Positions 55,625 through 59,174 of a stretch of DNA of 64,000 nt are shown in pieces. Position 1 is the stretch's first letter. The number at the start of each line of letters is the position of its first letter. Under the pieces are notes generated by a model that worked only from the letters and a program-made list of their open reading frames with translations, was not told where the DNA came from and did not search any database. The DNA is from Terriglobia bacterium (lineage in GTDB: Bacteria; Acidobacteriota; UBA6911): assembly GCA_020072565.1 (NCBI GenBank), contig JAIQGI010000003.1, forward strand, positions 186,001 through 250,000, in the 5' to 3' direction. Position numbers and translations under genes: made by a program.

Positions 55625-57010
55625 ATGGTAACAACTATCCTGGCTTTCATCGTGGTGCTGGGCATCGTGATCACTGTTCACGAGTTCGGTCATTTCGCCA
55701 TGGCCAAGCTGTTGAAGATCCGGGTGATCACCTTTTCATTGGGTTTCGGCCCACGCCTCGCTGGATTTACGCGCGGAGGCACGGAGTATCGCGTAAGCCC
55801 CCTACCTCTGGGCGGTTACGTGAAGATGGCCGGGGAGGCGTTTGATGAGGAGCGTCAAGGAGCTCCGGACGAGTTCCAGTCTCATCCCAAGTGGCACCGG
55901 TTGCTGGTTTCACTGGCTGGCCCGTTCATGAACATCCTGCTGGCAGTGGCGATTGTGACCACTTCCTACATGGAGGGTGTGCTGGCATACCGCTATCTCA
56001 TCGGCCCGGCCGATGTTGGCCCGGTCATATACAACTCGGTCGCGCAGCGCGCCGGACTCAAGTCGAAAGACCGCATCGTGGCGGTCAACGGCAACCGGGT
56101 CAACACCTGGCAAAGCATGGAGATCGCGCTGGGGACGGCGCCCCGGGATGCGCTGAACGTGAGCGTCGATCGCAGCGGCCAGCGGATCGAGCTGCACTTC
56201 GATACACCGCCGACAGAAGACGTCGATCCTATCAGCCTCGGGTTTAACTACATGCTGCCCAGGACGATCGTGCAGGAGTTGGATCCAAACTCGCCTGCAC
56301 AGAAGGCCGGCCTGAAACCAGGGGATGAGATCCTCTCGGTTCAGGGAGGCGGCAAGCGGGGCAGCGGCTATGACGAGATCCTCAGCATCATTTCGGAAAG
56401 CAAGGGTGTGCCGCTGCAATTCGAGATCCGGCGCCCAGCCGTTTCGCCTCCGCCTGGCGCGAGCTGGGAATCCACAGTTCAGGAGCTTCCTCGCACCAGT
56501 GCCACGCATTGGCTCACAATCACGCCGATCGAGGACAAGGGTCGCGTGCTTGTCGGCTTTTACGCCAAGATTCCGGCAGACCACGAGCGCTACGGGCTCC
56601 TCGGGTCGGTGAAACACGCGGTTCGCCACAACTATGACATCGCAGTTCTTACGATGCAGGTTATCGGCAGGATATTTACCGGAAGCGCCTCAGTCAAGAC
56701 TATCTCGGGACCTATCGGGATTGCAGGCGTAGCCGGGGACGCTGCCCGTACTCACAGCGCCCGGCTCTTCATCGGTTTTATTGGGTTGTTGAGCCTCAAC
56801 CTCGGAATCTTCAACCTGCTCCCGATCCCCATTCTGGATGGCGGCGTAATTGCTCTGCTCCTGATCGAAGGCCTGATCGGGCGGGACCTGAGCCTCGGAA
56901 TCAAAGAGAAGATCGTTCAGGTGGGTTTCGTTTTCCTGATCCTCCTGATGGGATTTGTCGTGATCAACGATCTCACCAAGGTCCTGAACTTCAACAGTAT
57001 CTTCCGCTAA
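55625..57010 (+). CDS. rseP: RIP metalloprotease RseP (M50 family)
   Basis: A 461-residue intramembrane protease. HEFGH at residues 19-23 is the zinc motif and NLLPIPILDGG carries the third ligand. Two PDZ domains (about 115-190 and 200-290) lie between the helices. The proteolytic targets are usually anti-sigma factors and signal peptides. Plausible substrates are the zf-HC2 anti-sigma protein here or others elsewhere. The stop codon overlaps the ancestral stop of the STAS gene on the other strand. Confidence 0.95.
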   Translation: MVTTILAFIVVLGIVITVHEFGHFAMAKLLKIRVITFSLGFGPRLAGFTRGGTEYRVSPLPLGGYVKMAGEAFDEERQGAPDEFQSHPKWHRLLVSLAGPFMNILLAVAIVTTSYMEGVLAYRYLIGPADVGPVIYNSVAQRAGLKSKDRIVAVNGNRVNTWQSMEIALGTAPRDALNVSVDRSGQRIELHFDTPPTEDVDPISLGFNYMLPRTIVQELDPNSPAQKAGLKPGDEILSVQGGGKRGSGYDEILSIISESKGVPLQFEIRRPAVSPPPGASWESTVQELPRTSATHWLTITPIEDKGRVLVGFYAKIPADHERYGLLGSVKHAVRHNYDIAVLTMQVIGRIFTGSASVKTISGPIGIAGVAGDAARTHSARLFIGFIGLLSLNLGIFNLLPIPILDGGVIALLLIEGLIGRDLSLGIKEKIVQVGFVFLILLMGFVVINDLTKVLNFNSIFR

Positions 57011-57289
57011 AAACTGCCGATCGCGGTCTGCTCGTTGTCGTAAGTCTGAAACACTGTCAGCAGTCTGTCCGCCCTGATTGGTGACCGTCGTAAAGCTGCT
57101 GACCAGTTCGCCTATGCCGGAGCTGTCGATGTAGTTGACGTCGGCAAGGTTGAGCACGATTTTCTTGCCGCCGGCCTTGATCACCTCGCGGACCGTATTC
57201 CGAATGGCCATCGTCCCCTCGCCGAGGGTTATTTTTCCGCTGCAATCCAGCACATGCACGTCCCCGACGATGCGATTCTCGATCTTCAT
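57007..57289 (-). pseudogene. STAS-domain anti-anti-sigma factor, damaged by an internal deletion
   Basis: SpoIIAA/RsbV-like: MKIENRIVGDVHVLDCSGKI, then the phosphorylatable Ser57 in NYIDSSGIGELV, ending normally at TNQGGQ. The next expected segment (about 18 codons) is missing, and the typical C terminus LLTVFQTYDNEQTAIGSF resumes in another frame and ends at the TAG on 57007-57009. As read, the frame instead runs antisense through rseP to 56690 (199 residues). A deletion of about 50 bases, not a multiple of three, explains this. Start ATG behind AAGGAG. It follows the RsbW-like gene with a four-base overlap. Confidence 0.8.
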
Positions 57290-58031: not shown

Positions 58032-59174
58032 TCACGCCTCGGCGCTCACGGAAAGGTGCCGCCTGGCGACACGTGCCGAGGCGCTTGCCGGATCCAGTTT
58101 CAGGTAGGCAAACCAATGCCGGCAGGCATCCCGCCTGCGGCCGGCCTTTTCATAGCATAGCGCCAGGTTGAAGTGCCCGTCGGCATAATCCGGGCTTGCC
58201 GCGAGAGCCGAGTGATAGCTCGCGATGGCTTCCTCAGTCTTTCCCTGTTCCTCCTGGGCTCCAGCCAGATTCCACCAACCCAGAGCCATGCCGGGGTCCA
58301 GCTGCGTGGCGCTGCCGTAAAACTCCTCGGCAGCCCACAGGACGCCCATCTCACGCATGACGTTTCCCAGATGCATGTAGGCCTGGGAAGAACCGGGCTC
58401 GAGCGCCAGAACCGCCCGGAATGCCTCGGTGGCTTCCGGATACAATCCCTCCTCTTCGCAGCCGAGGCCCAGTTCGAACCACTCAGCCGAATTGCGCGCC
58501 TGTAGGTCCAGAGGGAGCACGACGCCTCCGGCCCGGCCCTGCCCCTCAAAATTGAACAGCAGTTGCCCGGTCGCTGAGAAGCGCACACCATCGTGATTGA
58601 CAAGCAGCACGTTCGGATTCTCCCCGATCACCCGCAATTGGGCCAGTGGTCTTTCCATACCCGGGAGGATGACTGCCAGATTGCGCAGGCTCTGGGCGAT
58701 CTTCTCCGGCCGGACGCCATTACGTACCAATTCGTGGATGGCCTGGATGGAAACCAGATCCTGAAAATCATAGAACCCATCCTGGGACCGGATCAGCCCA
58801 GACTGTTGCCAGCCGCGGAGTGTCCCTCTGTCGATCTTCAGGATCCGGCATACCTCGCCTGGCGGGAACATCTTGCGCTGCGCCTCCCCTGGCTCCGCCC
58901 TGCCGATAACCTCCAGGAACTCCGTCTCGGGCGCGATGCGAATCGGGCAGCCTGCTCCCCTCAGCTCTTCCGCACGTCTAAGCTTGTGGCTGATCTCACC
59001 GTCAGGAAGCAGCGGCCAGCCGTCGGTGCCGACGACCAGCATCGCCGTTCGATGCGATACATACGAAGTGGGTTCGCCGCCGTGGTCGCGTACAATGCAC
59101 CAGGCTTCCCGGCGTGTCATCGAAGCCATTTTCCCGGTGAAAGTAATTCGAGCCTTTTCGAGCAAGTTGGCCAT
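58032..59174 (-). CDS. BRCT - MerR-type HTH - TPR fusion protein
   Basis: A 380-residue cytoplasmic protein with three distinct modules. Residues ~1-90 form a BRCT domain (KARITFTGKMASMTRREA, with VSHRTAMLVVGTDGWP). Residues ~100-165 form a MerR-like helix-turn-helix (MFPPGEVCRILKIDRGTLRG, WQQSGLIRSQDG, FYDFQDLVSIQAI). A linker rich in hydrophobics precedes four or more TPRs (AEWFELGLGCEEEGLYPEAT; YADGHFNLALCYEKAGR). The ATG at 59174 is used; longer frames have no supported start. BRCT domains bind phospho-proteins or DNA nicks, so the combination suggests a transcription or repair adaptor. The exact role is unknown. Confidence 0.8.
   Translation of the reverse strand: MANLLEKARITFTGKMASMTRREAWCIVRDHGGEPTSYVSHRTAMLVVGTDGWPLLPDGEISHKLRRAEELRGAGCPIRIAPETEFLEVIGRAEPGEAQRKMFPPGEVCRILKIDRGTLRGWQQSGLIRSQDGFYDFQDLVSIQAIHELVRNGVRPEKIAQSLRNLAVILPGMERPLAQLRVIGENPNVLLVNHDGVRFSATGQLLFNFEGQGRAGGVVLPLDLQARNSAEWFELGLGCEEEGLYPEATEAFRAVLALEPGSSQAYMHLGNVMREMGVLWAAEEFYGSATQLDPGMALGWWNLAGAQEEQGKTEEAIASYHSALAASPDYADGHFNLALCYEKAGRRRDACRHWFAYLKLDPASASARVARRHLSVSAEA

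Follow-up and report, generated by a model that had tools for sequence, protein, structure and literature searches.

Which cellular process is served by a protein that carries a BRCT domain, a MerR-type helix-turn-helix and tetratricopeptide repeats (TPRs) in a single chain is the question raised by this locus of the window, the stretch of 64,000 nucleotides of Terriglobia bacterium DNA that was analysed. The gene is read from the minus strand, which the sequence-only reading had left unstated while giving the coordinates exactly, and it encodes 380 amino acids (Table 1). Its closest named relative, found in a congeneric Acidobacteria MAG (L031/L064), is 63% identical over the full length and lies among the same neighbours; a chance open reading frame or a contaminant is ruled out by this full-length, syntenic copy. 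No signal peptide was seen and the protein is cytoplasmic in look, as had been supposed. A defence system was also considered and rejected, as PADLOC gave weak partial matches only (best E 0.008).

Table 1. Window positions of the BRCT-MerR-TPR gene, of its modules and of the two adjoining genes
Feature	Position	Strand	Basis and remarks
BRCT-MerR-TPR protein gene	58032..59174	-	ORF with ATG at 59174 and stop ending at 58032; domain matches; congener 63% identical end to end
BRCT domain, residues 5-91, RFC1/LigA type	58902..59162	-	Profile and model; motifs FTGK..S.TR, VSHRT, S.KLRRAEEL, PET.FLE
MerR-type winged helix-turn-helix, residues 103-166	58677..58868	-	Pfam MerR_1 E 1.5e-7; aligns across the family
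Middle segment, residues 167-212, ending in conserved GQLLFNF (residues 203-209)	58539..58676	-	Family alignment
Four TPRs and capping helix, residues 229-375	58050..58490	-	Pfam and model
RsbW-like HATPase_c_2 anti-sigma kinase, 150 aa	57286..57738	-	HATPase_c_2 E 1.2e-22; neighbour only, outside the conserved unit
STAS domain, intact for about the first 75 residues only	57064..57289	-	STAS E 8e-8; neighbour only

All three modules that had been proposed were found to be real by Pfam, NCBIfam, PDB profile and AlphaFold2 evidence, and their combination is indeed unusual. MerR_1 passes its Pfam cut-off over residues 106-165 (E 1.5e-7, 31.9 bits against a cut-off of 21.6), and several TPR models pass theirs over residues about 225-366. 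The BRCT on its own stays under the Pfam cut-off, with E 0.016 in the whole protein and 9.5e-4 for a scan of the 90-residue piece by itself. Residues 5-90 match the BRCT-bearing C-terminus of NCBIfam PRK06195 with E 2e-15; the DnaQ-like exonucleases of this type have a similar BRCT at their C-terminus, whereas the window protein is without an exonuclease domain. Moreover, a profile of the family BRCTs run against the PDB recovered the BRCTs of LigA (7e-10) and RFC1 (2.7e-9). The AlphaFold2 model of residues 1-100 (pLDDT 81, pTM 0.73) shows the element order b1-a1-b2-b3-a2-b4-a3, which is the BRCT order (b-a-b-b-a-b-a), and the best Foldseek match of this model is the RFC1 BRCT 2ebu (E 1e-5), LigA chain 9a6z being matched as well. 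The full-length model was built from two sequences only; its BRCT part was unusable (pLDDT <50) and was replaced by the domain model, and its TPR part is predicted with pLDDT >90 as four hairpins and a capping helix. The structural check suggested by the sequence-only reading, for a BRCT fold in the N-terminus and a helix-turn-helix in the middle, found both to be present.

Sequence profile and predicted fold place the BRCT with the DNA-binding domains of RFC1/LigA type and not with the tandem phosphopeptide class. It has its fold in common with the BRCTs of RFC1 and LigA, and in its N-terminal half also the TG, arginine and GG positions. On the other hand, it is placed N-terminally on a MerR-TPR protein, without any clamp loader or ligase part, and contains the insert GWPLLPDGE. 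The isolated RFC1 BRCT prefers 5'-phosphate DNA ends with a Kd of about 10 nM (PMC9293009). The binding face differs inside the whole RFC complex (PMC9293004), and because of this difference the carrying over of the 5'-phosphate end function to the window BRCT is something that we infer.

The insert is common to two other proteins. The nearest BRCT in sequence (46% identity over 80 residues) belongs to an NAD-dependent DNA ligase (L032 3213-5249), whose C-terminal BRCT has the same insert and is unlike the usual LigA BRCTs of the sampled genomes. The other is a 1113-residue HEAT-repeat protein of a Singulisphaera MAG (L033 3030-6368), which contains an internal BRCT of the window subtype.

The family of the window protein was sampled in 297 Acidobacteriota genomes, with 77 loci examined, and, beyond that phylum, in plasmid records. 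A full member was called with the family profile in 97 of the 297 genomes. Members score at least 155 bits, clearly apart from the highest non-member (125 bits, a partial match on the TPR side); the window protein reaches 341 bits and is homologous along MerR, GQLxF and TPRs in that order. In most Acidobacteriota relatives the alignment begins near residue 100 and runs to the C-terminus, and the BRCT is absent; the core of the family is thus formed by the MerR domain, a middle segment with GQLxF(D/N)F at its end and the TPRs, with the BRCT as an optional N-terminal addition. Positions that hardly vary in the family alignment include G203, Q204 and F209. Whether the architecture recurs had been posed as a check, and it does: a BRCT is carried at 21 of the 77 loci. 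These belong to the window pair, to one genome of f14 and to a large clade made up of further families (f51/f36/f32 and kin), whose members are without most of the middle segment and retain GQLxFDF. Within this middle-segment-deleted clade (L066-L077, L142-L151) the BRCT has been lost or is degraded in some members (f24, part of f32). The fusion of BRCT to the MerR-TPR family is found in several lineages. The BRCT label needs six changes on the MerR-TPR tree, and the BRCT tree leans to at least two fusion origins, with a single origin not rejected (AU p 0.33); for a placement of the window pair among ku-linked members from the same class, the trees spoke neither for nor against it (AU p 0.17). 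Database labels for members read 'tetratricopeptide repeat protein' or 'helix-turn-helix', and once, for a plasmid copy, 'MerR family transcriptional regulator'. In the openly licensed literature that was searched, the family and its ku linkage were found to be undescribed; an earlier description elsewhere is possible.

A lead to function comes from the BRCT-less relatives. Bacterial non-homologous end joining (NHEJ) is presented in the literature as consisting of two components (PMC12784961, PMC3102665), and two surveys of Ku and NHEJ mention no TPR or MerR gene (PMC7719229, PMC11936186). At 26 of the 56 BRCT-less Acidobacteriota loci, ku adjoins the family gene; in nearly all of these it precedes the gene in the same orientation, one pair being divergent, and in 15 of them ligD is present within about 1.2 kb beyond. 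Further, a tblastn search of plasmids gave 33 Burkholderiales records with a full-length member, and comparison of coordinates with the ku search placed ku directly upstream on the same strand in 32, one of the plasmid ku readings running over the origin of its record. In annotated plasmid examples the gap from ku to the gene ranges from -4 to about 60 bp, often as a 4-bp overlap, and plasmid p2 of Cupriavidus metallidurans (L200) has the order ku, MerR-TPR, ligD. The association extends to whole genomes: family gene and Ku are both present in 74 of the 297 Acidobacteriota genomes, the family gene only in 23, Ku only in 23 and neither in 177 (odds ratio 25; Fisher p 7e-29, which overstates the significance because related genomes are not independent). 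Many co-occurring genomes carry the family gene and ku unlinked, and therefore the tie is more than physical. Hence the MerR-TPR family is very probably tied genetically to the Ku and LigD system. The view in the sequence-only reading that a BRCT usually marks DNA-repair proteins fits here, as BRCT-less members of the same family adjoin ku.

Several loci deserve mention in their own right. In the Burkholderiales plasmids L182-L186 and L199-L201, ku is followed at once by the MerR-TPR gene, which makes this gene a candidate third NHEJ gene independently of the window protein. One of them, a plasmid of Variovorax boronicumulans (L183), carries ku twice at a distance of about 4 kb; ligD accompanies one copy and the MerR-TPR gene the other. 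Within one genus, ku lies directly before the MerR-TPR gene in one genome (L086, G015), and in another (L088, G020) the MerR-TPR gene is kept and no Ku was found, which suggests a recent loss of ku or an assembly gap.

From the MerR domain through the final TPR, GQLxF motif included, the window protein is homologous to the ku-linked MerR-TPR proteins of Burkholderiales plasmids and Acidobacteriota. Whereas those proteins lack a BRCT and lie beside ku, the window copy has a BRCT and belongs to a genome without Ku: Ku was found neither in the window genome (G000, 98% complete) nor in the congener (G001, 92% complete). The gene is neighboured by rsbW, STAS, rseP and dxr and not by ku. This holds more widely, as no BRCT form lies beside ku among the 21 BRCT loci; Ku is present in 11 of 20 BRCT genomes, away from the BRCT gene. 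The neighbours in the large BRCT clade are glucokinase, a DEAD-box helicase and IF-1, and they offered no repair lead. As the genus has no Ku and no BRCT form lies by ku, the step from the family to the window copy rests on homology and on the BRCT itself. The LigD search of the window genome covered LigD_N, and a standalone phosphoesterase-type domain of this kind was found as an open frame of 144 residues beside a STAS gene (L181 1435-1866, G000:C36).

The reading we prefer, to which we give about an even chance, is that the window protein belongs to a BRCT-bearing branch of a MerR-TPR family working with double-strand-break end joining, and that it acts physically at DNA breaks. In the proposed mechanism, the MerR winged helix would be the DNA-holding part of the family core, and the TPR solenoid may offer a docking surface for repair partners, possibly contacting Ku and/or LigD in the ku-linked members. 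The RFC1/LigA-type BRCT of the window protein would most likely recognise a 5'-phosphorylated DNA end or a nick, so that this copy could serve as a Ku-independent scaffold at breaks or nicks. Beside Ku and LigD, bacterial end joining probably has a third component that has gone unrecognised, namely this family. With NHEJ taught as Ku and LigD, a gene that follows ku with hardly an exception in one plasmid set and co-occurs with it across a phylum has a strong claim to be a partner or regulator that has been missed. The full proposal, in which MerR-TPR proteins are the third end-joining component and, in some Ku-less lineages, a fused end-binding BRCT took over break recognition independently of Ku, goes further and is unlikely as a whole. 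If it is true, the BRCT form would be a case in which bacteria have fused a eukaryote-like module for sensing breaks to that partner and can perhaps do without Ku.

A regulatory role is the alternative which survives best, and we regard it as a real though doubtful possibility. Here, the MerR domain would bind an operator (the ku promoter in the relatives), the TPRs would sense or recruit and the BRCT would sense damage-related DNA or a phosphorylated partner. MerR domains usually control transcription, and MerR_1 is over the Pfam cut-off in the window protein and in most members, one plasmid copy even being annotated as a regulator of this family. Moreover, a regulator is commonly encoded downstream of the gene it controls, and a trans-acting one could be unlinked to ku; copies unlinked to ku are seen in the window genus and many Acidobacteriota. 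On the other side, similar winged helices are also known in architectural DNA binders such as RacA, phage Xis and gpNu1, and the window protein differs from MerR regulators in that the shared winged helix-turn-helix is followed by the GQLxF segment and TPRs. A BRCT, which is not sequence-specific, would also be an unexpected part of a protein that controls promoters. As for gene order, an overlap of 4 bp with ku and a place between ku and ligD fit a stoichiometric partner no less than a regulator, and a partner is favoured by them for the family core. An autoregulatory operator upstream of ku was considered separately and set aside, since a comparison of 28 ku-linked loci revealed no shared dyad there; this test is a weak one and its outcome is weak evidence against autoregulation.

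The protein may instead be a housekeeping TPR/helix-turn-helix adaptor with no tie to DNA breaks, for which the ku linkage of the relatives would not be transferable and the BRCT would be a generic protein-binding module. The lack of Ku in the genus and the variation of neighbours from lineage to lineage, as described above for the large BRCT clade, are in agreement with such a role. It is nevertheless quite improbable, as the BRCT falls in the DNA-binding class and not in the one that binds phosphopeptides in tandem, and as the family co-occurs with Ku even where the two are unlinked.

The RsbW and STAS genes lie downstream of the BRCT-MerR-TPR gene, as the sequence-only reading had said, but the signalling role it had seen hinted there was not borne out, because this arrangement is confined to the two species of the window genus and is absent from every other sampled family locus. 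Membership of a partner-switch circuit formed with these neighbouring RsbW and STAS proteins is accordingly very improbable, even though strand and order are the same in both genomes of the genus, as a gap of 293 bp with a promoter-like TTGACA-18-TAAGAT precedes rsbW (the site being a weak indication, about one such site being expected by chance in the region), and as the window STAS frame is broken while the BRCT-MerR-TPR gene is intact. This neighbourhood tells little about the function of the BRCT-MerR-TPR protein. As for the STAS frame itself (56690-57289, minus strand), its C-terminal part is lost after TVTNQGG by an apparent frame-changing deletion, which could be real or an assembly error; the STAS gene of the congener (L064 10384-10806) is intact.
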